In this document: positions 4,551 to 35,625 of the stretch, in pieces | Layout of the letters: every line of letters begins with the position of its first letter | Numbering within the stretch: the stretch's first letter is position 1 | Assembly: GCA_958295785.1 (NCBI GenBank) | Contig: OY282377.1 | Coordinates: forward strand, 2,944,385 to 3,008,384 | Length of the DNA stretch: 64,000 bases | Direction of reading: 5' to 3' | Source of the DNA: an uncultured Latescibacterota bacterium | GTDB lineage: Bacteria; Latescibacterota; UBA2968 | Notes under the pieces: model-generated | What the model was told of the DNA's origin: nothing | Database searches by the model: none | The model's input: the letters and a program-made list of their open reading frames with translations, nothing else | Program-made: the position numbers and the translations under genes

Positions 4551-6104
4551 TTATTCCTCAATCATCACATCATAAAACCACTTGCTCCCGGTCGGGTGTA
4601 GCTTGAACCCCGTGATCCGAGTGTGAAAGGCCGCGGTTTGGGTGGCGTGTACCAGCGGTACCCATGGCGCGTCGTGAAAAACGATCTCTTGCGCCTTTTG
4701 ATACAAGGCCGTGCGTTTGGCTTTGTCCGACTCCTTTTGCGCGGCCACCAGCACCTCGTGCAGTGGGTCGCTGCGATAAAACGCGATATTGTTGGCGGGC
4801 TTTTGGGTCGCGCTCTTGTCCAGCAAAACGTAGAGAAAATTGTCCGGGTCCCCATTGTCGCCTGTCCATCCCAACAAGGCCATATCGTGTTGCCCGCGCT
4901 GAACTTTGTCCAGATACGTCCCCCATTCATACGTTGTGATTTCCGCTTTGATTCCCACCGCCTGCAAATCGGCCTGAATGGCCTGGGCAATTTTCAATGG
5001 CTGCGGCATATACGGCCGGGGCACGGGCATGGCCCACAGCGTGGTCTCAAACCCGTCTGGAAAGCCTGCATCGGACAGCAGGATTTTGGCTTTTTCCGGA
5101 TCGTATTCATAGCCGGGGGTTTTCTTGCGATAACTCCAAATCGTGGGCGGAATGGGATTGACCGCGGGGATCGCCAAGCCCTGATACAAATTGTCGATCA
5201 GTGCCTGTTTGTCAATGGCGTGGTTGATGGCGCGGCGCACGTTGAGCTTTTGAAACGGCTCTTTGTCCATGTTCATCGCCAAATAGCCTACATTCATTCC
5301 GGGTTGCGACAGCAACGCGAGGTGATCGTGCGATTCAATGGTCGGCAAAAAATCTGGCACCAAATTGTCCATGCCGTCAATAGATCCCTGCGTCAGCGCG
5401 ATCAAGCGAACCGAATTTTCGGGAATGCTCCTGAAAATGAGGCGATCAATTTTGGGGACTGACCCCCAATAATCGGGATTGCGATCCAACACAATGCGGT
5501 CGTCTTTGATCCAATTGACAAAGCGAAATGGGCCTGTACCCACGGGATGGCGGGCAAAATCAGCCCCCCATTTTTCGACCGCAGACGGACTGACTATGGC
5601 GCAAAAGTTCATCGCCAGATTGGAGAGAAAAGGCGCGTTGGGGCGTTTCAGATCAATGCCCACGGTCACATCATCAATTTTACGCACATCTCTCACAATC
5701 TCGCTCATCGACATGCTCGACCAGTATTGATACGCGCCTTCCACTTTGTGAAACGGATGATCGGCCTTGAACTGCCGCGCCAATGAAAACACCACAGCAT
5801 CGGCGTTGAAGGGCATACCATCGTGAAAAACCACGCCTTCTCGCAGGTGAAATGTCCAGGTCAAACCATCTTCTGACGCTTGCCATGAAGTCGCCAGGCC
5901 CGGCGCCAAGTCCGTGCGCTCGGGCACAAAGGTGACGAGCGTCTCGTAAATATTATCGCACACCTTAAACGACTCGCCATCTGTCTCCAGCGCGGGATCC
6001 AACCCTACGGAATCGCCTCCGCGTCCGAAAACAAGCGTGCGCCCGGCCTGTTGGCTACAAGCGGTTATCGCCATCAAAATTGCAAAAAATAAATAGCGCG
6101 TCAT
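4551..6104 (-). CDS. ABC transporter substrate-binding lipoprotein, peptide/nickel family (SBP_bac_5)
   Basis: Solute-binding protein of the DppA/OppA type, 517 residues, expected to be tethered in the periplasm. The start at 6102-6104 (MTRYLFF) has GGAG seven bases upstream. The N-terminus is a lipoprotein signal with lipobox ITAC, Cys at about residue 16. Family hallmarks are visible: GGDSVGLDPAL, YETLV, the long SWQASEDGLTWTFHLREGV segment, PVGTGPF, NPDYWG and RRAINHAIDK. No permease or ATPase lies nearby, so the transporter partners must be elsewhere. The substrate cannot be read from sequence. Confidence 0.92.
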   Translation of the reverse strand: MTRYLFFAILMAITACSQQAGRTLVFGRGGDSVGLDPALETDGESFKVCDNIYETLVTFVPERTDLAPGLATSWQASEDGLTWTFHLREGVVFHDGMPFNADAVVFSLARQFKADHPFHKVEGAYQYWSSMSMSEIVRDVRKIDDVTVGIDLKRPNAPFLSNLAMNFCAIVSPSAVEKWGADFARHPVGTGPFRFVNWIKDDRIVLDRNPDYWGSVPKIDRLIFRSIPENSVRLIALTQGSIDGMDNLVPDFLPTIESHDHLALLSQPGMNVGYLAMNMDKEPFQKLNVRRAINHAIDKQALIDNLYQGLAIPAVNPIPPTIWSYRKKTPGYEYDPEKAKILLSDAGFPDGFETTLWAMPVPRPYMPQPLKIAQAIQADLQAVGIKAEITTYEWGTYLDKVQRGQHDMALLGWTGDNGDPDNFLYVLLDKSATQKPANNIAFYRSDPLHEVLVAAQKESDKAKRTALYQKAQEIVFHDAPWVPLVHATQTAAFHTRITGFKLHPTGSKWFYDVMIEE

Positions 6105-6299
6105 GACATTCTCCAAGGATCTACAAATCTACGGATCGGCGGAACGGGGTACAACTGCGTCAGCAATTCATCGGTGGACGGGCACAATTGAATTGGGAAT
6201 TGGGAGTTGCGAATGGAGGGTTGGGCCAGCCGTTCATTTGCGAATCTACGGGCGGGCACGGAGGCACCGCCCCTACGTTTTTTTTCGCATCTTCCGTCC
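6105..6299. repeat. Intergenic region with a GC-rich hairpin repeat (family R1)
   Basis: A member of the GTAGGGGCG..GCCC repeat family lies at about 6250-6278 in inverse orientation. Nothing else is recognised. Confidence 0.5.
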
Positions 6300-7298
6300 T
6301 TACTCCTCAAATGCCGCGTCAAATGCTACATCTGAGGGTTCAAAGTCTATCTCGTTGACAAAGGCGCAGGCTTCGGTCGCGCCGTGCTCGCGGTCCATCC
6401 CCGAATCTTCCCATTCGACCGAGAGCGGCCCGTCGTAGCCGATGTCGTTTAATGCGCGAATGATCTCTTCGAAAGCCACGCTGCCGCGCCCGAGGGAGCG
6501 GAAATCCCAACTGCGGTCTGGATCGCCAAAACTGGTATGCCCGCCAAAAATGCCCGCGCGCTTGGGATAGGGCGACAAATACGCATCTTTCAGGTGGACG
6601 TGGTAAATCCGCTCGCTGAATGTGCGAATAAATCCCACGTAATCCACATTTTGATAGACCAGATGGCTCGGGTCGTAATTGAACCCGAACTCGGGTCGAT
6701 TGTCCAATGCGTCCAATGCCCGCGCGGACGAAGAAATATCAAATGCGATTTCCGTTGGATGCACTTCCAGGCCGAAGCGCACATCGCAGGCTTGAAACAC
6801 GTCCAGGATCGGATTCCAGCGGTCCGCAAAATCGCGGAAGCCCGCGTCGATTTGATCGGGCGACACCGGGGGAAACGAATACAACAGATGCCAGATCGAC
6901 GACCCTGTAAACCCGTTGACCACCTCGAGGCCCATCGCTGTTGCGGCTTCTGCGGTCGCCTTCATTTCTTCGGCAGCGCGTTGGCGCACGCCTTCCGGAT
7001 CCCCATCGCCCCACACATGCGGCGGCAAAATCGCCTGATGCCGTGCGTCGATATTGTCGCATACCGCCTGCCCGGCAAGGTGATTGCTAATGGCAAAACA
7101 CTGCATGCCGTATTGCTCGAGCAATTCCTTTTTTTCGCGCACATAGCCATCATTTGACGCGGCTTCGCGCACATCCATGTGATCGCCCCAACAGGCGAGT
7201 TCCACACCGTCATAGCCAAAATCCCTGGCCTTTTGCAACATCGCGTCCAGCGGCAAATCCGCCCACTGTCCGGTGAATAATGTCACTGGTCTTGCCAT
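6300..7298 (-). CDS. Sugar phosphate isomerase/epimerase (xylose isomerase-like TIM barrel)
   Basis: TIM-barrel protein of 332 residues. Likely metal ligands are visible in GLEVHPTEI (Glu), NYDPSHL (Asp/His), YHVHLKD (His) and LSVEWED (Glu), the pattern of AP-endonuclease-2-like sugar isomerases and epimerases. The ATG at 7296-7298 ([10 protein letters not shown]) follows GGAGAGAG. The Gfo/Idh gene ends 74 bases upstream on the same strand; this isomerase plus dehydrogenase pairing is common in inositol or rare-sugar catabolism. The substrate is not known. Confidence 0.88.
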
Positions 7299-7371
7299 TT
7301 CTCTCTCCTTTAAAAGCGGATAAAATCCAATCTCACCCCTCCCATCTGCGTCCATCCGCGTTCATCCAGGC

Positions 7372-8529
7372 TTACACCCGCGGCACGTCCATCCACGCTT
7401 TTGACTTCGCCGAATCCACGACCGCCTCCAAGACAGCTTGAACCTTTGTGCCCTCAACAAAGTCGGGCGAAAACGCCTCGTCCTTTGCAATGGCTTCAAA
7501 GAAATCCCGAAACTCGTGCGTAAAGGTGTGTTCCCAACCGATGATGTGCCCGGGCGGCCACCACGCGGACATAAAGGGTTGGTTGCCCTCGCCCACGATA
7601 ATTTCGCGGAACCCCTGAATGTGGTCTTCGTCGTCGCGCGAATAGAATTGCAACTCGTTCATCTTTTCCAAATTGAACGCGAGGCTTCCCTTGCTCCCGT
7701 TGATTTCAAACCGGTTGTGATTGCGCCGTCCCGCTGCAAATCGCGTGGCTTCAAACGAGCCGAGCGCGCCATTGGCAAATCGCGCCAAAAATAAGGTGGC
7801 ATCATCCACAGTCACGCGCCCCATGGTTTTGCCGCCCTTCGCGCCCAAACCCGCGTCAACCGCTTCGAGCATCGGGCGTTCTTTGATAAACGTGGTATCC
7901 GCGCCGACCACGCTGTCGATATCCCCCACGAGATGCAGCGCGAGGTCGATGATATGCGCGTTCAAATCGCCGTGCGGCCCGGAACCGGCCTTGTCTTTTT
8001 CCAACCGCCAGACCAGTGGGAAATCCGGATCGATGATCCAGTCTTGCAAATACACGGCGCGCCAGTGGTAAATCTCTCCAATCCGACCTTCGGTGATTAG
8101 CTGCCGCGCCAAGGCCACCGCGGGCACGCGCCGATAGTTGAATGCCACCATTGTTTTTTTGGATGTGTTTGCGGCCGCGGCCAGCAATTCTCGGGCTTCT
8201 TCGAGGGTGTTTGCCAGCGGCTTTTCGCAAATCACATGCTTGCCCGCTTTCAGTGCTGCCAGTGCCATGGGCAAGTGCAAGTTGCCGGGCGTGCAAATGT
8301 CGATGACGTCGATGTCGTCTCGGGCAACGACCTTTTCCCAGTCGGTTTCGCATGCTTCCCATCCATAAGCTTGAGCCGCGTCTTGCACCGCGTCGCGGTC
8401 GCGCCCGCAGATCACTTTCAATACGGGTTTTACATCGAGTTCGGGAAAAAACGCGGGCAACTGGCGAAATCCATTGCTGTGCGCCTTGCCCATAAAAGAA
8501 TACCCGATCATGCCGATATTGAGTTCCAT
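7372..8529 (-). CDS. Gfo/Idh/MocA family oxidoreductase
   Basis: NAD(P)-dependent sugar or cyclitol dehydrogenase-like protein of 385 residues. The Rossmann start IGMIGYSFMGKAH and the catalytic EKP motif (VICEKPLANT) are present, and the C-terminal part is the usual alpha/beta substrate domain with HIIDLALHL. The ATG at 8527-8529 has AAGGAGG seven bases upstream; an upstream in-frame extension lacks a ribosome site. It likely forms one unit with the isomerase-like gene downstream. Confidence 0.9.
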   Translation of the reverse strand: MELNIGMIGYSFMGKAHSNGFRQLPAFFPELDVKPVLKVICGRDRDAVQDAAQAYGWEACETDWEKVVARDDIDVIDICTPGNLHLPMALAALKAGKHVICEKPLANTLEEARELLAAAANTSKKTMVAFNYRRVPAVALARQLITEGRIGEIYHWRAVYLQDWIIDPDFPLVWRLEKDKAGSGPHGDLNAHIIDLALHLVGDIDSVVGADTTFIKERPMLEAVDAGLGAKGGKTMGRVTVDDATLFLARFANGALGSFEATRFAAGRRNHNRFEINGSKGSLAFNLEKMNELQFYSRDDEDHIQGFREIIVGEGNQPFMSAWWPPGHIIGWEHTFTHEFRDFFEAIAKDEAFSPDFVEGTKVQAVLEAVVDSAKSKAWMDVPRV

Positions 8530-26990: not shown

Positions 26991-27380
26991 TCATGGTGCT
27001 TGGATGAGTTCCAAGTCGGGAATGCCAGAGAAGTCGCGATCGTGGGATACAAGGGGGCAGTCCAGCATGATCGCGGTTGTAGCGATCCACGCATCTGCCA
27101 CCTGCATTTCTCGCCCCACGGACTTCCGCTCGCTACGCAAGCCAGCGCATGCGTCCACCAGTTCTGGGCCGGGCCAAATTACCTCGTACTGTTCGAGATG
27201 GTGCGCGAACTCGTTCTTCCGCCTGTCGCCCCAGCCCTTTGCGTACGCGCCGTACCAAAGTTCCTCCAGCGTCTGGAAAGAAATGATCACGCGACGGCCT
27301 TGAATCCTGTCTTGGTAGTTCAATGCCCTGGCGTCCCGATTGAAGATGTACGAAACGATATTGGTGTCCAAGATTACCAA
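26991..27380 (-). CDS. VapC-family PIN-domain ribonuclease toxin
   Basis: 129 residues with the PIN acidic set: Asp5 (LDTNIV), Glu39 or Glu40 (TLEELWYGAY), Asp96 (VADAWIA) and Asp114/116 (SHDRDF). VapC toxins cleave RNA and are held by a cognate antitoxin. The start is TTG (27378-27380), which has AAGGAG eight bases upstream and overlaps the previous stop by 7 bases, so it is coupled to the DUF2442-containing gene. Confidence 0.9.
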   Translation of the reverse strand: MVILDTNIVSYIFNRDARALNYQDRIQGRRVIISFQTLEELWYGAYAKGWGDRRKNEFAHHLEQYEVIWPGPELVDACAGLRSERKSVGREMQVADAWIATTAIMLDCPLVSHDRDFSGIPDLELIQAP

Positions 27381-28075
27381 TTTGAAAACTCCTTTTGCCC
27401 TGCGTCTCGACCTTCTTGGATGGTGCGAATGAACTCATCTGCATCGAAAGGTTCGCTGGCGGTAACGACCTTTTCAGGGTCGAAGATCTTCGGATTGGGG
27501 TCGTTGCGGAATGCCTCGAGGTCGAACGGCTCCGACCATGACCGCGTGCCGCTTACCTGCTCCACGAAAACCATGTTCCAGTTGTCATTGTCGTTGAAGC
27601 GGCCGCGGCCTCTGATCTCGACATACTGCGTCGCCAGCCGACGCATGTCGTCGTTCAGTGCAGGTTCAAAACGCAACGGCACGACCCGCCCATGCACGAG
27701 GTGCAACTTCGCTGTGCCGCAGGCCCAATTCACCTCCATCAGCCATCCATGCACCAACGCAGGCTCGTCCATGACCACCGGTTGCTTTGCGTCGAAACAT
27801 CGCTTGACGGACTTCTCACTTGCTCCCGAAGGGCAACCAGCAAACAAGTCTTCGACGCTGAGGTCTGCGTTCAGGTCGGGCCAATAGATGCCTGAACCTC
27901 CGTTGATAGGTCGCCAGTTGCGTCTTTCTTCTGCCGTCGCGTGCATGAGTTTGGGATACCAGTCCAGGGGCACGGAGATGGTTCGCCCGTCGGAGAGTTC
28001 TGCCATCAGGGTGTCCTCGGTGACTTTCACGCGCTCAACTTCCGGCAACGTCACATCAATTGTCGAAATATTCAT
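27374..28075 (-). CDS. DUF2442-domain protein, probable unusual antitoxin for the VapC toxin
   Basis: 233 residues. The N-terminal 75 residues are a DUF2442 domain (LMAELSDGRTISVPLDWYPKL, INGGSGIYWPDLNADLSVEDLFAG). The remaining 150 residues hold a beta-rich segment (CGTAKLHLVHGRVVPLRFEPAL) and an acidic C-terminal tail (SEPFDADEFIRTIQEGRDAGQ), a plausible toxin-binding peptide. Canonical VapB antitoxins are about 70-90 residues with AbrB or ribbon-helix-helix domains, so this partner is atypical. Assignment as antitoxin rests on the 7-base overlap with vapC. GGAGG lies six bases before the ATG. Confidence 0.7.
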   Translation of the reverse strand: MNISTIDVTLPEVERVKVTEDTLMAELSDGRTISVPLDWYPKLMHATAEERRNWRPINGGSGIYWPDLNADLSVEDLFAGCPSGASEKSVKRCFDAKQPVVMDEPALVHGWLMEVNWACGTAKLHLVHGRVVPLRFEPALNDDMRRLATQYVEIRGRGRFNDNDNWNMVFVEQVSGTRSWSEPFDLEAFRNDPNPKIFDPEKVVTASEPFDADEFIRTIQEGRDAGQKEFSNW

Positions 28076-28263: not shown

Positions 28264-29100
28264 CTACCAAGCGGTTGACACTGCTCTCTTGGTAAGAAAT
28301 TGATACAAAGGAGAAGAAGGTTGAATTGAAATGAGACTGATGACGGTTTGATATGTTTTCAGATAAATCGCGTCTTCTTGGATGGTGAAACTTTGGGAGA
28401 ACTCGTGATCCTCAGCCCACATCCCTACGGGTACTTGCTGTGGCACTCCGGGATAAGGATGTCCAGCAAAAAGCCGCCCTGCGAAAGAATCTGCATCTAC
28501 AAGCGTTTGCATATCTAGCAGTCGCAAGGGAAAATTTTCGCTGGTTCTGAACCATTTTATCCTGCCATCAACGCTGAATATCGCCGCACAATCATGCCGA
28601 GTAAAATCAAGATATCGGAGAGTCGTCGCAGTTAAACTCGTTTTGAATTCTGTGCTCAATCTCTCAATTGTTGCCATAGTCGGGCTTTCGCAACAACCTC
28701 TTATCTCAAACAGAAAATCCGGCATTAGGAGTGCAACCGCAAAAGCATTAGCCTCTTGCTCTTCTAGAGGAAACTCTTGGTACCAAAATAAAAGCTCTGA
28801 TCGATGACACAAAGAAAGTTGATTCTTTTTTTTGTGAAGAATAAAGTGCCCAAATTCATGTGCAATAGCAAAACGGCGTTGCCCGACTTCGCGAATCCTG
28901 TCAGAGACGCGTACCAGAGCCCTGTCTTTCCCATTGCGAACCAGACGAGCAAGAGCTCCTTTCAACGGTGCTTCAATCACCAAAACACCTTTATCCAAGC
29001 AGATGGCATTAAGGTCAATCTGACCCGGATTAGTAATCCCATAATACCTAAGGATTTTATGTGCAAGTTGAATAGGTCGACGTGATATGTAAGAGTTCAT
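28264..29100 (-). CDS. ImmA/IrrE-family metallo-endopeptidase
   Basis: 278-residue soluble zinc peptidase-like protein. The active-site helix is FAIAHEFGHFILHKK with the downstream Glu in LEEQEANAFAVALLMP, which together form the HExxH..E zinc site. ImmA/IrrE proteins cleave repressors or anti-sigma-like partners in response to DNA damage or mobile elements. A C-terminal region of about 110 residues is of unknown fold. The start at 29098-29100 overlaps the upstream stop as ATGA, so it is coupled to the small helical gene and the sigma factor. Confidence 0.9.
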   Translation of the reverse strand: MNSYISRRPIQLAHKILRYYGITNPGQIDLNAICLDKGVLVIEAPLKGALARLVRNGKDRALVRVSDRIREVGQRRFAIAHEFGHFILHKKKNQLSLCHRSELLFWYQEFPLEEQEANAFAVALLMPDFLFEIRGCCESPTMATIERLSTEFKTSLTATTLRYLDFTRHDCAAIFSVDGRIKWFRTSENFPLRLLDMQTLVDADSFAGRLFAGHPYPGVPQQVPVGMWAEDHEFSQSFTIQEDAIYLKTYQTVISLISIQPSSPLYQFLTKRAVSTAW

Positions 29101-29555
29101 GGTGTTTTCTCGCCTTTCCCACCTTCGTATTCCAAATTTTCCCACAATTGAAGCAATTCTGCGTCTTGTGCAAGGCTTTCCATATCTTCCTTATCAATTG
29201 TGTTCAATTTGCGATAGAATGCTTGCAAAGCATTATTGGACACATCATAGCCAAATTCGTTTTTCAACCAGGTACCCATTTGCTCCCTTGGATCCCCAAT
29301 TGAAGAAAGAGAATTTTTTACCTGAGCAACAAAATCCGAAAGACGTTTTTGCCGTTGCTGTGCCTTGGCCAGACGTACGCGCCCTTTCTGGTTTTGGATA
29401 AATGCCATCCCACGCTGTCTGAGCACATCCGGATCGTAACCGCTACGACGCAATTCATCGTTCAAGGTCTCTTCATTTTCGGTAGTAGCCTCGTGCAATG
29501 CGTCAACCAGATTATCCATTATCTCTGTGGAAGTGAGTTTACGCCTATTGTCCAT
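29097..29555 (-). CDS. Small helical protein between sigma factor and ImmA/IrrE peptidase
   Basis: 152 residues, almost entirely charged and helical (MDNLVDALHEATTENEETLNDELRR, KAQQRQKRLSDFVAQVK, DMESLAQDAELLQLWENLE), without Cys or membrane segments. I do not recognise the family. It overlaps the sigma gene by 11 bases and the peptidase gene by ATGA. By position and composition it could be the regulator (anti-sigma-like) that the peptidase cleaves; that is inference only. Confidence 0.7.
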   Translation of the reverse strand: MDNRRKLTSTEIMDNLVDALHEATTENEETLNDELRRSGYDPDVLRQRGMAFIQNQKGRVRLAKAQQRQKRLSDFVAQVKNSLSSIGDPREQMGTWLKNEFGYDVSNNALQAFYRKLNTIDKEDMESLAQDAELLQLWENLEYEGGKGEKTP

Positions 29556-30168
29556 ATCTAATCAACCTTGTTATTTGTTGCAGATTGGCGGCCTGTAGTT
29601 TTCGACGAATTCGTCTTGTAATCACATAGATTTCTTTTACCGGTTTGCCAAGTTCTTTTGCTATTTCTTGGGGCTTTGCGCCTTCTTGCAAATACAAAAG
29701 AACCATGCCTGCTTCCTCATCATCTTCTAACAGGCTTTCAATCTGCGCTATCTGATCCTTGGACTCTAGGCTTTCTTCTGGCGAAAGATGGTTGCTCAAA
29801 GCTTCGTGTCCCCAACCATCGACACCTGCATCCACTGACAGTGCTCGGCGTGTTCTATTGTCCTCTGTCTCCGCTAGATGGTTTACTAGGCTTTTAATAA
29901 TGCCTTTCAGCACCACCTCGAGATTGGGATGTTTAACTACATTCCATGTCCTCTGGCCACTAAAGAGTGCTTCAATAGCTTCTTGGGCAAGATCTTCTGC
30001 TTGTGTGTCACCGGGGGGATGTCCACCTGGCCATAGCATCAAATTCAGCTTTAACTGAGCATAAGCAACTAATGGGGGATAAATTTGATCCCAATTGGCT
30101 TTTTCAAGTTGGCGCAAGACCTCTGGACAGGGAAGTTTAGATGTGCGTTTTTCATCTTCCATAACCAA
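29545..30168 (-). CDS. RNA polymerase sigma factor, sigma-70/ECF-like
   Basis: 207 residues. Region 2 resembles AEDLAQEAIEALFSGQRTWN and region 4 is AGMVLLYLQEGAKPQEIAKELGKPVKEIYVITRRIRRKL, a helix-turn-helix for -35 recognition; the linker is acidic. A TTG at 30166-30168 has AGGAGG seven bases upstream; an ATG two codons downstream is the alternative. The IS5 element was inserted only 21 bases upstream, so the native promoter may be displaced. It heads a three-gene coupled run with the helical protein and the ImmA/IrrE peptidase. Confidence 0.85.
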   Translation of the reverse strand: MVMEDEKRTSKLPCPEVLRQLEKANWDQIYPPLVAYAQLKLNLMLWPGGHPPGDTQAEDLAQEAIEALFSGQRTWNVVKHPNLEVVLKGIIKSLVNHLAETEDNRTRRALSVDAGVDGWGHEALSNHLSPEESLESKDQIAQIESLLEDDEEAGMVLLYLQEGAKPQEIAKELGKPVKEIYVITRRIRRKLQAANLQQITRLIRYGQ

Positions 30169-30195
30169 ATCAATTCCTCCTCATACTAAGAAGCC

Positions 30196-30666
30196 CTAAC
30201 ATAAAGAAAGTAAGCGTCTGAAACAGATGAGAGAACAGCCGATGGAGAGGAACGCCTCATGGATGTCCGCTCTGCGTTCGTCGCGCACCCGCAGGTTGCG
30301 GAACTGCCGGAGCCAGGCCAGCGTCCGCTCAACGACCCAGCGGTACACGCCCAACCCGCTACCATGCTCTGTACCCCGCAGGGCGATCACCGGCCAGATG
30401 TGGCGTGCACGCAGGGCCTTCCGGTGTGCCCTCGAGTCATAGGCACGGTCCGCATACAGCCGTTTGGGTCTGCGACGCGGACGACCGCGTTTGCCTCTGA
30501 CCGCGGGCACAGCGTCCACCAAGGGCAACAATTGCGTCACATCATGCCGGTTCGCCCCAGTCACAATCGCGGCCAGAGGCACCCCGTTGGCATCGGTGAT
30601 CACATGATGCTTACTCCCGGGCTTGCGGCGGTCTGTGGGATTGGGGCCGGTTTTTCCCCCCAGCAC
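30196..30666 (-). CDS. IS5-family transposase, OrfB part
   Basis: Contains the later DDE segments: HHVITDANGVPLAAIVTGANRHD, the Asp in LYADRAYDS and the Glu region in YRWVVERTLAWLRQFRNLRVR. It is read by a frameshift from OrfA at the run GGGGGGAAAAA near 30650, typical of IS427-group elements, so the full product is a fusion. Confidence 0.9.
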   Translation of the reverse strand: MLGGKTGPNPTDRRKPGSKHHVITDANGVPLAAIVTGANRHDVTQLLPLVDAVPAVRGKRGRPRRRPKRLYADRAYDSRAHRKALRARHIWPVIALRGTEHGSGLGVYRWVVERTLAWLRQFRNLRVRDERRADIHEAFLSIGCSLICFRRLLSLC

Positions 30667-31006
30667 CTACCGCACGCAGGGAGGTGCTGTCCACGCAGGC
30701 ACGAGACCCGGCCAGGCCATCGGCCGCTCGCAGTTTGGACAACAGCAGATGATGAAGCCGCTCCCACACGCCTGCGTCATGCCATTCCTTCAGACGACGC
30801 CAGCATGTCATCCCGGAACCCCACCCCATCTCTTGGGGCAACTGCTCCCATGGGATGCCGCTCTTCAGGACAAATAGAATGCCGGTCAATGCCTTGCGGT
30901 CGTCAATGCGCTTCCGTCCGGGGTAGCGGAATCGTCTCGGCTTGGGAACCGGCAAAAGGGGGTGGACCTTTTCCCAGAGTTCATCGCTCACCAATGGTTT
31001 GGACAT
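30611..31006 (-). CDS. IS5-family transposase, OrfA part
   Basis: 131 residues: DUF4096-type N-terminus (SDELWEKVHPLLPVPKPRRFRYPGR, TGILFVLKSGIPWEQLPQEMGWGSGMTCWRRLKEW) and the first catalytic Asp in ACVDSTSLRA. It overlaps OrfB by 56 bases. Confidence 0.9.
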   Translation of the reverse strand: MSKPLVSDELWEKVHPLLPVPKPRRFRYPGRKRIDDRKALTGILFVLKSGIPWEQLPQEMGWGSGMTCWRRLKEWHDAGVWERLHHLLLSKLRAADGLAGSRACVDSTSLRAVGAGGKNRPQSHRPPQARE

Positions 31007-31208
31007 TTATCCCTCCTCGCCCGATAAAGATGCCGGGCATGGACGTTGTAAGGGTTGGGCTGAGAAGAAAATCGGCCTCTCACAAATCCATGTCAACCCT
31101 TTTTGTTAGGGCTTCTAAGAAATCCTTTAACCAACACGGTCGAATTAACAAAGAGCATGTCATTTTGTTTGCAAAATGAGAGACAGAACACGCATCACAA
31201 GTTTTGAC

Positions 31209-31592
31209 CTACCTTGCTAGAAAAAGTCGGATATTTCGCCAGATCGGAAACTTGTGATCGTTGCACCAATAGACCCTGCCATCTCTGAACCAGAAATGCG
31301 AACGGCATCCTTTTTTTTGCAAAATGGAAGGACAAAGCGTTCCTAAGCCATCCTTATGCACCGTGAGGGACCAGACAGGCCTCTCATCTGGAATAAGGTT
31401 CATATACAGCGTTTGCTCGCATCCACAAGGGCAAAGCATCGCCGCGTGCCAAGGTTCACCAGCCTCCCTGACGATATAGAGAATTTTGGGCTTTAGGTGT
31501 TCTGGAGCATCTTCTTCAACAAAGACAGTTCTAAACCGAGGGCATAGCAGATTGTGTAGCCAGTTTTTGAGCCGCTTTAGCATCAACTTCAT
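31209..31592 (-). CDS. DUF6527-family protein of the ubiquitin-like operon
   Basis: 127 residues. Signature segments are LCPCGCEQTLYMNL, PVWSLTVHKDG, TLCPSI and GCRSHFWFRDGRVYWC, with clustered Cys/His that could hold a metal. DUF6527 proteins are known neighbours of bacterial Ubl/E2/E1 genes; their activity is not established to my knowledge, though a role as a processing or deconjugating factor has been suggested. The ATG (31590-31592) shares one base with the E1 stop (TGATG), so it is the last coupled gene of the operon. Confidence 0.82.
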   Translation of the reverse strand: MKLMLKRLKNWLHNLLCPRFRTVFVEEDAPEHLKPKILYIVREAGEPWHAAMLCPCGCEQTLYMNLIPDERPVWSLTVHKDGLGTLCPSILQKKGCRSHFWFRDGRVYWCNDHKFPIWRNIRLFLAR

Positions 31593-32998
31593 CAAGTGTC
31601 TCCATTTGACAACTCTGTTAGATTGAGTAGCGGTCTAACATCTCCCTTGCCAACATTGCCGCCAAAAATGGAGCAAAACTCGGGTTTGGGATCGTGATAC
31701 ATCTGCATACCGGCAAGGTCAACTTCGATGTGATCGTAATCACTATTAGGCTCGTCCCGAAATGGGTGTAACCTAGCGAGTAGTTCATGCACACCGAGCG
31801 AAGCCAAAGACATATTCAGACTAATGACGGCGGGACGAGCCACGACTACACCGGCGATATAACCATCTTTAACCTGTTGTGCGTGGGCCTTTGGATCGTT
31901 CCGTGCCAGCCCTGCTGCAGAGACCTGTTCTATGGTAAATACACCTCGACTAACCAAGCTCGACCCGCCTGGTTTCAGATAGTGTACACTTCCACAGATG
32001 GCTTTGATCTCCCCTTTACACTTATCATCCGGAGTTGCATGAATTCTGACACCAAGGTCAATATAGGGAAGCAGATAGTAGGAAGCGAGCAGGTTGAGCA
32101 GAAAACGCCCGTCAATTGTATCTACACACCCAAAAACGAGATCGCATTGGACAACGGCCCGCACCGCATCTGGTTTCCAAAGGTTTGCAGAGATAGGAAC
32201 AACGCGGGTTCCTATACCCATACGCTTGATCGCATTGGCTAAGACATTGACTTTGTACCGACCAACTTGCACATCATTCATTGTCGCATTCAGGATGCGG
32301 TTGATATTTCGCTCCTCCACAATGTCCTCATCAATGAGTACCAGTTCCCCAACACCGAGTCGGGCAAGTTGCTCAATTACCGGACTACCAGTCCCTGAAC
32401 AGCCAACAACTGCTATCGACAGACGGCGAATACGCTCAAAGGTCCCTTCGCCAAATGCTTGGGTATGCGAAGATGCGAAAGGCGGAGAATCGTTTTTGAG
32501 TGGATCGGCGTACCAGAATTGAAGGTCGTCCCCGACCACATTAATATGCGCCAAAGGCGCAAAGTCACCGTTTCCAGCAAGGTAACGACCAAACATCTCT
32601 CCATTGGGAAGCATGACGACACTACCGTGGAAGAAATCTTCCTCAAACCAGTCTCGAATCGCGGGTATTAGCTTGTGATCACCTTCATCATCGATTTCAG
32701 AGAACCGTGCCTTGCCATTGGGATGACTATGACTTTTGATCACAGTCAACCCCTGCTTTTCGGCGTAATCAAGCAGGGGGGCAATTACATCGGTTGACCA
32801 AGTCACTCTCACTGGCGTGCGTTCAGAGCATTGATCATACGGAATTGGGTGAATTTCTCGAGCAACGAGGCGATGCCTGCGATCACCAGCGCATCTACCA
32901 CAAAGGATAATAGCCGCAGCCTCATATCCATCACCTGGCAAGAGATGCGCTTTAAGTTCCTCGTGTTGCTCTATGGTCAGGGTAAGCGTTACTTCCAT
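31592..32998 (-). CDS. JAB/MPN protease fused to ThiF/E1-like adenylating enzyme
   Basis: 468 residues. The N-terminal domain is a JAMM metallo-isopeptidase: His90 and His92 in SHSHPNGKARFSEIDD with Ser100 and Asp103 at canonical spacing, and Glu26 as likely activator. The C-terminal domain from about residue 190 is E1/ThiF-like: nucleotide motif VVGCSGTG (199-204), LIDEDIVEERNINR (Asp/Arg contacts for ATP) and GCVDTIDGR with Cys291 as candidate catalytic Cys. So one chain can both activate and remove a ubiquitin-like modifier. AGGA lies six bases before the ATG, 9 bases after the E2 stop. Confidence 0.9.
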   Translation of the reverse strand: MEVTLTLTIEQHEELKAHLLPGDGYEAAAIILCGRCAGDRRHRLVAREIHPIPYDQCSERTPVRVTWSTDVIAPLLDYAEKQGLTVIKSHSHPNGKARFSEIDDEGDHKLIPAIRDWFEEDFFHGSVVMLPNGEMFGRYLAGNGDFAPLAHINVVGDDLQFWYADPLKNDSPPFASSHTQAFGEGTFERIRRLSIAVVGCSGTGSPVIEQLARLGVGELVLIDEDIVEERNINRILNATMNDVQVGRYKVNVLANAIKRMGIGTRVVPISANLWKPDAVRAVVQCDLVFGCVDTIDGRFLLNLLASYYLLPYIDLGVRIHATPDDKCKGEIKAICGSVHYLKPGGSSLVSRGVFTIEQVSAAGLARNDPKAHAQQVKDGYIAGVVVARPAVISLNMSLASLGVHELLARLHPFRDEPNSDYDHIEVDLAGMQMYHDPKPEFCSIFGGNVGKGDVRPLLNLTELSNGDT

Positions 32999-33007
32999 TT
33001 GCTGTCC

Positions 33008-33412
33008 TCACTTCTCAAATTCTCGACTCAGCCAGTCTTCAACTAAGAGAATGTGCGTCCCAATGTCGTCTTGACCGACAATCCACGGGTTCGTACTTGT
33101 GCGGTGACGGGACCATCTTTGAAAAGTCTTGCCATCAATCGGTTGCGTCGCTTCAGTAGCTACAATCCGCTTTCCATCCTTTCGCACAAGTGCAGGAAAA
33201 AAATACACCATGTCAAGCGGTGCAATTGGATAGCCGCTTTCCAGACGGATAGCGGCTATAACCTGTTGATGGTTGTACCCTGAGTGCTGAGTACAAAAAT
33301 CATGCAACAGCACCCATTGGGAGCCATCAGAGATGGCCTCCCAGGGGCAACCGTAATTGTCTAAAAATTGGCGATCATCCGCAGGAAGTTCAAATTGACG
33401 CCGTAATGACAT
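33008..33412 (-). CDS. E2-like conjugating protein (prokaryotic E2 family E)
   Basis: 134 residues with a UBC-like core: WVLLHDFCTQHSGYNHQQVIAAIRL, then GYPIAPLDMVYFFP corresponding to the YP..PP turn of E2s, and the family-E tail DGKTFQRWSRHR, NPWIVGQDDIGTHILLVEDWL. Both Cys (22 and 40) lie before the YP turn; none lies where canonical E2s carry the thioester Cys. The start at 33410-33412 (MSLRRQ) has GAGGGAG and overlaps the Ubl gene by 23 bases. Confidence 0.85.
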   Translation of the reverse strand: MSLRRQFELPADDRQFLDNYGCPWEAISDGSQWVLLHDFCTQHSGYNHQQVIAAIRLESGYPIAPLDMVYFFPALVRKDGKRIVATEATQPIDGKTFQRWSRHRTSTNPWIVGQDDIGTHILLVEDWLSREFEK

Positions 33413-33809
33413 TTTCTCCCTCTGTCTGATCAAGCGGCAGAGCCTTAAACTTTTCCACACCTGGACCCCTAAGATCAACCCGTTCGTCCGGCTTGATCAA
33501 TTCGGGCTTACAGCCCCGTACCACGAACCGCAATGACCATTGGTCAACCGGGGTCAAGCCCGCTGTCTCAAGAATCATTTCACGAGTCGGGTTTGCCTCA
33601 TGGATTACAAATCGATCACGATTGACGCGGATGCGATAGCCACGACAATGCGGGGGGCGTTCCCCACGCGCCGCATATTCTTCCAGGTCGGCGATTTCGT
33701 CGCGGAGTTCTTCCCGAATCGCCTCGGATACATCATTCACATTTATCATGCCATCCTCCCCTTGACCGGATGCAGGAGCTTTTTGTCCTGGCTTCAGAGG
33801 TCTGGCCAT
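33390..33809 (-). CDS. Ubiquitin-like modifier (multiubiquitin-domain type), single Ubl copy
   Basis: 139 residues. After a basic start (MARPLKPGQKAP) and an acidic helix (SEAIREELRDEIADLEEYAARG) comes one beta-grasp-like domain from about residue 54: RGYRIRVNRDRFVIHEANPT, REMILETAG, WSLRFVVRGCKPELIKPDERVDLRGPGVEKFKAL. This is the multiubiquitin-family pattern, but with one repeat. The chain ends DQTEGENVITASI, without a Gly-Gly tail. The ATG at 33807-33809 has AAGGAGG eight bases upstream. It is the first gene of the conjugation operon. Confidence 0.85.
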   Translation of the reverse strand: MARPLKPGQKAPASGQGEDGMINVNDVSEAIREELRDEIADLEEYAARGERPPHCRGYRIRVNRDRFVIHEANPTREMILETAGLTPVDQWSLRFVVRGCKPELIKPDERVDLRGPGVEKFKALPLDQTEGENVITASI

Positions 33810-33903
33810 GTAAATCACCTCCTTTCAGAGTAGAATCTAACGCCTCTACCCATATATGCCCGTTAGTTTGCAAATTTTGCCATGAGGAAAAAAAAAATTT
33901 ATA
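33810..33903. promoter_or_regulatory. Leader of the ubiquitin-like operon
   Basis: AT-rich 94-base segment between the Ubl start and the IS5 remnant, with an A10 run at about 33889-33898. Any native promoter of the Ubl operon lies here or was replaced by the IS remnant. No clear -35/-10 pair was identified. Confidence 0.35.
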
Positions 33904-34370
33904 GTCCCTAGGTCGTGTTGACATTTTGTTTTACTGTGATGAGAGTAGCCGCAAAACAGAGAACGCCTCGATAACTCGCGTCGCGTTTCTCAAACCGAGA
34001 AAATATCCTGCGATACGGCTTCATTTTCCCGATGAACCGCTCAATCAAATTGCGTTGCTTGTATCGGTGGCGATCATCGCACCGTGGGGGCTTTCGATTA
34101 GACCGAGGCGGGATCCCGGCAATCTGTCCGCTGTTGAAAATGACGTCCTGAAATGCTTGTGAATCATCGCCCTTATCCGCGATGACATAAGAACTCTCAT
34201 CCCCAGCGATTAACGCCTCTGCTTGGGTTTGATCGTGGGCTTGTCCCGGGGGGAGTCGAAACCTTTGCGGGATGCCTTGTGCATCGGTGCAAAGGGGGAC
34301 TTGGGTGCTGAACCCGTCCCGGCTTCTGCCGAGGGCTTGCGCGGCTTGTCCCCCTTGTATCTTGCGAGAA
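33904..34370 (-). pseudogene. IS5-family transposase remnant (C-terminal part)
   Basis: Minus-strand frame with QGGQAAQALGRSRDGFSTQ, LPPGQAHDQTQAEAL, IADKGDDSQAF, RYKQRNLIERFIGKMKPYRRIFSRFEKR and a C-terminal LCFAATL, the order of IS5 OrfB. The N-terminal part is missing; the frame is lost at about 34370 where the IS110 element begins. This is a different IS5 lineage from the intact copy at 30190. Confidence 0.8.
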
Positions 34371-34617
34371 AGGGTTAATTAGGTGTTGCACCGTCGTATC
34401 GAGACAAGGCATCTTGATGCCCGGCTCGGGGAAGGCCGATCCTCCTTGAAGGCGATGACCTTGTAGAAAAGATAGGCCCCCCGACCGCCGGGTCGATACC
34501 GAAGAGTATCTAAGTCCATTGAGGCTGCATAGACAAGGTCGGTAGGCTTGGCGTGAAAAGGTCGGGACGCGAGCGAAGACCGTATCCCTTAGAACCCCCT
34601 CATCACAGGAGGCCGCG
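34371..34617 (+). ncRNA. IS110 noncoding left end, candidate bridge RNA region
   Basis: 247 bases without an open frame, immediately upstream of the IS110-type recombinase. In IS110-family elements this position encodes a structured bridge RNA that pairs with donor and target DNA. Several short self-complementary segments occur, but I cannot assign loops, ends or guides by eye. Confidence 0.4.
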
Positions 34618-35625
34618 ATGTCGAAATCCCACCCCTCTTTTGCAGGCATTGATGTCCGTGCCCGTGCGTTGCGCGTTGCCCTGTCAAGCGCTGGGCAAGC
34701 CGTCAAGCAAGCGACCTTTGACAACGATCCCCCGGCACACAAGCGTTTGCTGAAGTGGCTCACCAAGGGCGGACGGACGGTCTGTGTCTGCCTCAAAGCC
34801 CCCGGGCTTTATCGCCTGGAGGTGGCTTTGGCCTTGCATCATCATCGCCGCACGCACGTCATGGTCGTCAATCCCAAAGCGATGCACAATGACGCGCAAG
34901 CCCGCATGCAACGGGCGAAGACAGACGCGATGGATGCGCTGTTGATCCTCGATGATGCCCAGCGCATGCCCTTTGTGGCTTGGCAACCCCCGAGCGAGCA
35001 CGTCCTGCAACTGCAAGCCCTGACACGCCGGATGGAGCAACTCAAACAAGCGATCATCCGCGAGCGCAACCGATCCCACGCACAGGGCTACCCCATCCGC
35101 AGCACACACCTCATCGCACGCGATATTCAGGGGCATATTCGACACCTCAAACGCCGAAACCAGTACCTGCAAGCCCAAGCCCTTGACTTGGTCAAGCAGG
35201 ACTTGACCCTCAAGCGCGCTTATCAACGCCTCTGCTCTGTCCGGGGTATCGCACAAACCAGTGCCTTGCGGATCTTGGCCGAACTGGCACTCCTGCCACA
35301 AGATATGAAACCGTCCCAATGGGTCGCACACGCAGGGCTTGACCCAAAACCGAAACAATCGGGCACAGCAAATCCGCCCAGACGCATCTCAAAAACCGGG
35401 AATAAGTACCTCCGACATGCCCTCTATATGCCTGCGTGGGTGGCCTGCCGGCACGAAGTCCATGTCAAAGCCTTCTATGACAAACTCATGGCCAGAGGCA
35501 AAAAGCCCTTACAAGCCATCGTTGCCGTGATGCGAAAGGTGCTCCATTCGATCTGGGGGATGTTGCGGCACGACCAAGATTTTGAGGGCGAGAAATTCTA
35601 TCGCATCACCTCTCAAACCCCTTGA
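34618..35625 (+). CDS. IS110-family transposase (DEDD recombinase), one catalytic acid replaced
   Basis: 335 residues. RuvC-like domain: Asp12 (FAGIDV), Asp103 and Asp106 (KTDAMDA). The C-terminal transposase_20 domain has SVRGIAQTSALRILAEL and the catalytic Ser248 in PKQSGTANPPRR. The second RuvC acid, normally Glu in a CLEATG-type segment, is Lys60 here (CLKAPGLY; codon AAA), so this copy may be inactive. GGAGG lies seven bases before the ATG. It interrupts the LAGLIDADG-like gene on its right. Confidence 0.9.
   Translation: MSKSHPSFAGIDVRARALRVALSSAGQAVKQATFDNDPPAHKRLLKWLTKGGRTVCVCLKAPGLYRLEVALALHHHRRTHVMVVNPKAMHNDAQARMQRAKTDAMDALLILDDAQRMPFVAWQPPSEHVLQLQALTRRMEQLKQAIIRERNRSHAQGYPIRSTHLIARDIQGHIRHLKRRNQYLQAQALDLVKQDLTLKRAYQRLCSVRGIAQTSALRILAELALLPQDMKPSQWVAHAGLDPKPKQSGTANPPRRISKTGNKYLRHALYMPAWVACRHEVHVKAFYDKLMARGKKPLQAIVAVMRKVLHSIWGMLRHDQDFEGEKFYRITSQTP

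Follow-up and report, generated by a model that had tools for sequence, protein, structure and literature searches.

A complete Bub operon of a Latescibacterota genome and a neighbouring sigma factor and peptidase module as its candidate control circuit

The Bub operon and the systems closest to it

The bacterial ubiquitination-like (Bub) pathway was described by Ye et al. 2026, a study cited in PMC13373217 and PMC12687455 and reported to cover 544 operons, and is represented in the PDB by the Citrobacter structures 9ea4, 9ea8, 9eae and 9eav. The bacterial ISG15-like (Bil) system likewise carries a ubiquitin-like protein, an E2, an E1 and a JAB peptidase in one operon. The known controllers of Bub operons and of the cyclic oligonucleotide-based antiphage signalling system (CBASS) are repressors that are released by DNA damage. 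Here a stretch of 64,000 nucleotides from contig OY282377.1 of an uncultured Latescibacterota bacterium, referred to as the window, was analysed for four adjacent minus-strand genes (31209-33809) and a module of three genes lying behind them. From their sequences the four genes are identified as a complete Bub operon, a member of the known pathway; this operon is known in kind and the sigma control module is the new part. The operon is likely to conjugate and remove the ubiquitin-like protein BubA under the control of a sigma factor, which would be held by a small protein termed mid and freed by an M78 metallopeptidase.

The gene bubA (33390..33809, minus strand) encodes a ubiquitin-like protein of 139 aa, and its ribosome-binding site and ATG were placed from the sequence at 33804..33825 of the same strand (AAAGGAGGTGATTTACATG). 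The gene bubB (33008..33412, minus strand) encodes an E2-like protein of 134 aa of the Prok-E2_E family; it overlaps bubA by 23 bases (33390-33412) and is separated by a gap of 9 bases from bubCD (31592..32998, minus strand), whose product of 468 aa is a JAMM peptidase fused to an E1/ThiF adenylation domain. The letters TGATG join bubCD to the DUF6527 gene (31209..31592, minus strand; 127 aa counted from the ATG at 31592, which is preferred over an upstream TTG), whose product is labelled BubE in this report. The open reading frames agreed in position, strand and spacing with an earlier note made from the letters of this DNA. The operon has a GC content of 49.8%, lower than the 54.7% of the window.

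The four products matched the Pfam families Multi_ubiq (45 bits, BubA), Prok-E2_E (130 bits, BubB), ThiF and Prok-JAB (104 and 37 bits, both on BubCD) and DUF6527 (77 bits, BubE), all above the curated cut-offs. Citrobacter BubCD (9ea4_A) matched residues 5-464 of the 468 residues of the window BubCD (E 4.6e-90) and Citrobacter BubB (9eae_C) matched the window BubB (E 4e-27). BubA matched multi-ubiquitin and Citrobacter BubA chains by sequence and consists of one beta-grasp domain at about residues 57-131; the top fold match of its AlphaFold2 model was Citrobacter BubA 9ea8_B (TM 0.82 of target, 2.0 A). The locus is assigned as a Bub operon because the Pfam results, the PDB sequence matches and the BubA fold agree. 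The earlier proposals of a single-domain ubiquitin-like protein, an E2-like protein related to the UBC fold, a single JAB-E1 chain and a DUF6527 protein with clustered cysteines are all borne out by these matches.

The Citrobacter system shares with the window the BubCD fusion over its whole length, BubB and the BubA beta-grasp fold, and in the Citrobacter freundii locus L004 the genes follow in the same order and end with one of DUF6527 type. The Citrobacter BubA carries several ubiquitin-like domains in one frame with BubB, whereas in the window BubA has a single domain, is encoded apart from BubB and ends in an eight-residue tail. Bil differs from the window in having a separate JAB and Cys-based E1 and E2 enzymes, while in the window JAB and E1 form one chain, the E2 is of the Prok-E2_E type with Ser replacing the conserved Cys, and a DUF6527 protein is present.

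The distribution of the operon was analysed by scanning GTDB contigs with a BubCD alignment, which found 182 relatives, of which 80 were kept as loci. Nearly all 80 carry BubA and BubB before BubCD and DUF6527 after it; since these loci were fetched with BubCD alone, the linkage is far beyond chance, and the lack of four-gene linkage in relatives that would have told against the earlier note was not observed. The Latescibacterota contigs L022 and L023 also carry the Bub operon, so the taxon is not new for Bub and the novelty claim is the weak point of the earlier note. The locus L022 corresponds, by contig position, to genome G008, which belongs to the same genus as the window genome, and a Prok-E2_E gene is present in 3 of 11 genomes of this genus, which fits a mobile, patchily kept system. 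A match is present in 176 plasmid records. Among phage records the matches cover only the ThiF part, and a phage-borne Bub system was rejected. A DUF6527 profile match in Caulobacter vibrioides, together with Prok-E2_E in none of 14 control genomes, reveals that DUF6527 also exists outside Bub operons.

Active sites and the tail of BubA

The JAMM residues E26, H90, H92, S100 and D103 and the adenylation residues G199, S201, G202, T203, G204, R234, K249 and D293 are kept in 84-86 of 86 BubCD homologues, in accordance with the intact JAMM and ATP sites noted earlier. All 85 BubB homologues have the motif W100-S101-R102-H103, and no conserved Cys was found among them, the best Cys column reaching 14 of 85. 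The description of the Bub pathway by Ye et al. 2026 is said to include oxyester chemistry in its abstract; the invariant Ser101 and the lack of a conserved Cys agree with this claim, and the same serine chemistry may apply in the window.

Counted from the ATG at 31592, Ser89 and His99 of BubE are invariant in 83 of 83 homologues, and Cys54, Cys56, Cys58 and Cys96 are invariant or nearly so. The AlphaFold model (pLDDT 92.4) places Ser89 and His99 on consecutive strands, and no solved relative was found in the PDB by profile or fold. BubE is likely a protease of the Ser-His kind that also binds a metal through its four cysteines (Cys4 site). A serine protease with a Ser-His dyad is reportedly named for the Bub pathway in the abstract of Ye et al.; it may be the DUF6527 protein.

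The expected mature C-terminus of BubA is Gly131, which is present in 84 of 84 homologues and is not terminal in the window, where the tail ENVITASI of 8 aa follows (codons and stop at 33390..33416, minus strand: GAA AAT GTC ATT ACG GCG TCA ATT TGA). The four gene assignments of the earlier note stood; it left unmentioned the residues past Gly131 and the sigma module behind an IS5-type element. Among 56 loci with separate bubA and bubB genes, the stop codon adjoins that of the glycine in 46, and in ten, the window included, bubA extends 1-15 residues past it. For the BubA type of the window (KFKALP..DQTEG) all 35 other loci stop at the glycine. The two genes form one frame in 28 loci with the same glycine at the joint, followed by Glu (10 loci), Leu (7), Tyr (5), Arg (4), Phe or Ala. 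The junction codons are GGT TGA AATG in L022, GGA TGA AGTG in L006 and GGA GAA AATG in the window.

These codons indicate either that the window bubA has lost its stop, leaving an eight-residue tail that would need cutting before use, or that the assembly is in error. The trimming is plausible, because a variety of residues is tolerated behind the glycine in the fused forms. A one-base assembly error, with the true gene ending after Gly131, is possible but on balance doubtful: one missing T (GGATGAAAATG read as GGAGAAAATG) suffices to explain the tail, while the site is not a long homopolymer and the comparison with L022 (GGTTGAAATG) fits two substitutions as well. A programmed +1 frameshift from bubA to bubB giving a BubA-BubB fusion was also considered and set aside, having no support beyond the compact overlap.

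If the tail is genuine, either the JAMM domain or BubE would be the enzyme that removes it. The DUF6527 residues Ser89 and His99 are kept in 55 of 55 operons with a separate BubA and in 28 of 28 with a fused one; as they persist with a pre-trimmed or fused BubA, maturation of BubA cannot be the only job of this protein. A role as maturation protease only was ruled out, since 46 of 56 separate-BubA operons need no maturation and still keep both residues. As DUF6527 is retained where nothing needs trimming, it must act on another substrate, probably the conjugates. The natural pre-trimmed, tailed and fused BubA variants thus inform on the role of DUF6527 in the Bub pathway.

Natural BubCD variants with altered JAMM residues occur in L070 (Q26, C90 and T100) and L032 (Y92). 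BubA is tailless in both loci, so there is nothing to trim there, which is a small hint on the trimming question.

The sigma-like factor module and its promoters

The module comprises three minus-strand genes. The sigma-70-like factor (29545..30162; 205 aa from ATG, with a TTG at 30168) matched TIGR02937 over residues 51-189 with 42.6 bits (E 5e-11), just under the cut-off of 42.9. The mid protein (29097..29555; 152 aa), for which a function as anti-sigma factor and protease target is proposed, is 74% identical to its L022 homologue, and its gene was found in G000 and G008 only among 60 related genomes. The M78 (ImmA/IrrE, CapP-like) metallopeptidase (28264..29145, start at GTG 29145 or ATG 29100) carries an HEFGH motif and matched Peptidase_M78 with 53.5 bits; its sole PDB match was CapP (7t5t, E 8e-15). 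Behind the M78 gene lies, on the same strand, the gene of a DUF2442 protein (27374-28075), which has a long C-terminal part without family match.

CapP is activated by single-stranded DNA and cuts the repressor CapH (PMC13373217). As in the CapH and CapP pair, the module places a CapP-related M78 peptidase beside an immune operon with divergent genes, but it has bidirectional sigma promoters, and no CapH-type helix-turn-helix (HTH) repressor was found as partner, its place being taken by the sigma-like factor and a 152-aa protein without a significant HTH family match. The CapK and CapS pair, which lies upstream of Bub and CBASS operons, is alike in resembling anti-sigma machinery; it consists of a kinase and a STAS repressor, with no sigma factor and no protease. 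The Citrobacter locus L004 carries no sigma module; upstream it has a winged-HTH gene with a second gene beside it, which by their position form a CapK/CapS-like pair. Extracytoplasmic function (ECF) sigma and anti-sigma pairs released by proteolysis share the small partner, the own promoter and the matched -35 and -10 elements with the module. They differ from it in that mid resembles no known anti-sigma factor and that the protease, M78 or proteasome-like, is encoded alongside.

A sigma-type promoter of bubA lies at 33853..33882 on the minus strand (TGGCAAAATTTGCAAACTAACGGGCATATA), 43 bases before the bubA start. It corresponds to three copies arranged in tandem before bubA in L022, and its geometry is that of the bidirectional promoters. 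The L022 elements are TGGCAAA and GGCATATA, arranged as three tandem bidirectional units 108-110 bp apart (L022:3622-3943). Searching with the window promoter gave one match in its own genome, three in G008 and none in G004, where Bub is present and the mid gene absent; among the four genomes searched, the promoter occurs only where the mid gene does.

A sigma homologue lies upstream of bubA in 14 of 83 relatives, in all of them divergent and within about 1.3 kb, and its neighbour encodes a small protein of 130-150 aa. Most of these loci show two back-to-back promoters consisting of TGTCCG, about 16 bases and a -10 element, which varies between loci and is much the same on both sides within one locus. 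Examples of a -10 element repeated on both sides are AGAGCCTA (L027), GCGCAT (L058, L066 and L067) and CCGCAT (L045). The exact pair CGGACA..TGTCCG occurs upstream of bubA in 9 of the 14 sigma loci and in 0 of 69 others, against 0.02 occurrences expected from shuffled sequence. A relaxed search allowing one mismatch per half also matched 12 of 69 control loci, so only the exact-pair search is used as evidence. With the pairs chosen by the -35 element alone (except L022, chosen by eye), the -10 elements agreed at 7.2 of 9 positions within a locus compared with 5.5 between loci, a result reached in 0 of 20000 permutations. Cognate promoters of fixed geometry thus stand before both the sigma gene and its target in relatives, and the window keeps the target side only.

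The sigma-like gene may instead be an independent regulator that lies beside Bub by chance, or may encode a repressor rather than a sigma factor. The marginal sigma scores in many loci and the position of the window gene, downstream and not divergent, speak for this. It is nevertheless considered quite improbable, since 14 of 14 homologues in relatives are divergent and within reach of bubA, the matched -35 and -10 pairs with constant spacing on both sides form the pattern of a sigma regulon, and NCBI labels the Bradyrhizobium homologues as sigma-70 family.

The third gene of the sigma-type Bub loci encodes an M78 peptidase in three and, in most others, a protein of about 450 aa with an invariant Thr after Met. 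As the PDB match of the latter reaches only E about 0.1, the label proteasome-like comes from one weak Pfam hit and this Thr. The exchange of the protease suggests one common step, destruction of the anti-sigma factor, carried out by two unrelated enzymes. The protein starts MT(S/T/A)E in L058:1858-3195, L066:1679-3031, L059:908-2233, L099:8071-9507 and L100:5267-6508, and it also occurs near an HTH-type Bub operon in Rhizobium gallicum. At L049:618-3062, directly behind a sigma gene and beside a Bub operon, the N-terminal motif of mid is seemingly fused to an Eco57I-type N6 methylase.

Taken with the operon, these parts would give the following circuit. The mid protein would keep the sigma factor inactive; the M78 peptidase, activated by single-stranded DNA arising from damage or infection, would cut mid, a step proposed by analogy with CapP, and the freed sigma factor would turn on its own gene and the immune operon, the latter from the promoter at 33853-33882. 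The BubC part would then adenylate the terminal glycine, BubA would be carried on Ser101 of BubB and passed to a target, and the JAMM domain and BubE would undo the conjugates. The sequences establish what the parts are, their linkage and conservation, the promoter geometry and the rearrangement of the window; the trimming, the serine chemistry, the hold on the sigma factor and its release, the trigger, the target and the purpose are inferred. The proposed circuit bears on how abortive or costly immune operons are silenced and triggered. If it is true, an immune operon would be under positive control by a sigma factor whose holding protein could be degraded by a CapP-like protease, and this control would be self-amplifying because the sigma factor reads its own promoter. 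A literature search found no description of such a sigma, mid and protease control circuit, a weak negative as most subscription papers lay outside the search.

Rearrangement of the window, role and related loci

In L022 the sigma, mid and M78 genes stand head to head with bubA. In the window an IS5-type element (30186..31119, minus strand; transposase domains, 21-bp inverted ends, TTA on both flanks) lies between bubE and the sigma gene, and an IS110-family transposase gene (34618..35625, plus strand; DEDD_Tnp_IS110 and Transposase_20) lies upstream of bubA. The similarity to L022 sets in again at 30185, at the border of the IS5-type element. As judged by this alignment, a single inversion of the promoter and bub operon explains the arrangement of the window; the operon is inverted relative to the module and the sigma gene therefore now lies downstream of bubE. 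The stretch from the bubA promoter to the IS110 gene (33902-34617) resembles the end of an IS5-type transposase gene (reading ..NLIERFIGKMKPYRRIFSRFEKRDASYRG..), which hints at the route of the rearrangement.

Several observations weigh against the proposed circuit. The window sigma gene has lost its own promoter half and sits behind an insertion element, so that the circuit may no longer work in the window. The -35 element of the window, TGGCAAA, differs from the common TGTCCG. The mid protein gave no family match and no resemblance to a known anti-sigma factor. In other Bub loci the scores of most sigma homologues fall short of every sigma model, and the proteasome-like protein replaces M78 in most of the 14 sigma loci. 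No anti-phage effect is known for Bub, whose operons 'have not been demonstrated to protect a host cell against phage infection' (PMC13373217); the earlier note had offered a phage-defence role as inference only, and this caution is upheld by the same paper.

The Bub operon as a whole might also be decaying, with a silent operon or unusable BubA, as its bubA stop is lost (in 1 of 36 loci of the window's type), the sigma promoter is lost, insertion elements flank it at 30186-31119 and 34618-35625, and its arrangement is inverted relative to L022. Decay is held to be unlikely, since all seven reading frames are intact, the catalytic residues of JAMM, E1, E2, BubE and M78 are kept, the core of the bubA promoter is retained, and the fused BubA-BubB forms make residues past the glycine normal, with Glu adjoining it in 10 of 28.

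As to its purpose, the operon could act in a general response to DNA damage or stress rather than against phages, an alternative that is given serious weight though it falls somewhat short of being the favoured one. It draws on the absence of any shown anti-phage activity for Bub, a point raised by the authors of PMC13373217 themselves. The scattered occurrence within the genus (3 of 11 genomes), the many plasmid copies and the regulators common to CBASS are defence-like and argue against it.

The switch proposed for the Bub operon was also found beside other operons. Plasmid searches with the window's own sigma and mid proteins gave no homologues at E 1e-3, and more distant family members used as queries did match; the CBASS-type loci were reached by plasmid searches with such relatives of the sigma protein. 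In Cereibacter sphaeroides 2.4.1 (plasmid pDE) and Roseivivax marinus the trio of sigma factor, small protein and ImmA/IrrE peptidase faces a CBASS operon with an oligonucleotide cyclase and a SAVED effector (PADLOC E down to 1e-201). In Bradyrhizobium (L111:1120-6531) it faces an operon for an MBL-like protein, an E1-E2-JAB chain and a patatin-like phospholipase, a second E1/E2 system under the sigma, mid and M78 switch; the record itself annotates sigma-70. A search of this locus for TGTCCG gave no match, and inspection by eye revealed TTCTGAAA and GGCATAG on both sides. Most trio loci outside Bub show the same paired promoter design, and the matched promoters provide a sequence signature for finding unknown defence operons.

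In L097, L098, L104, L106 and L107 (at about 5000-7800), on several plasmids, two small genes face the sigma, mid and M78 genes from the other side of the bidirectional promoter. These pairs mostly comprise one DUF2188 gene and one hypothetical gene, and are possibly a small defence system not yet described.

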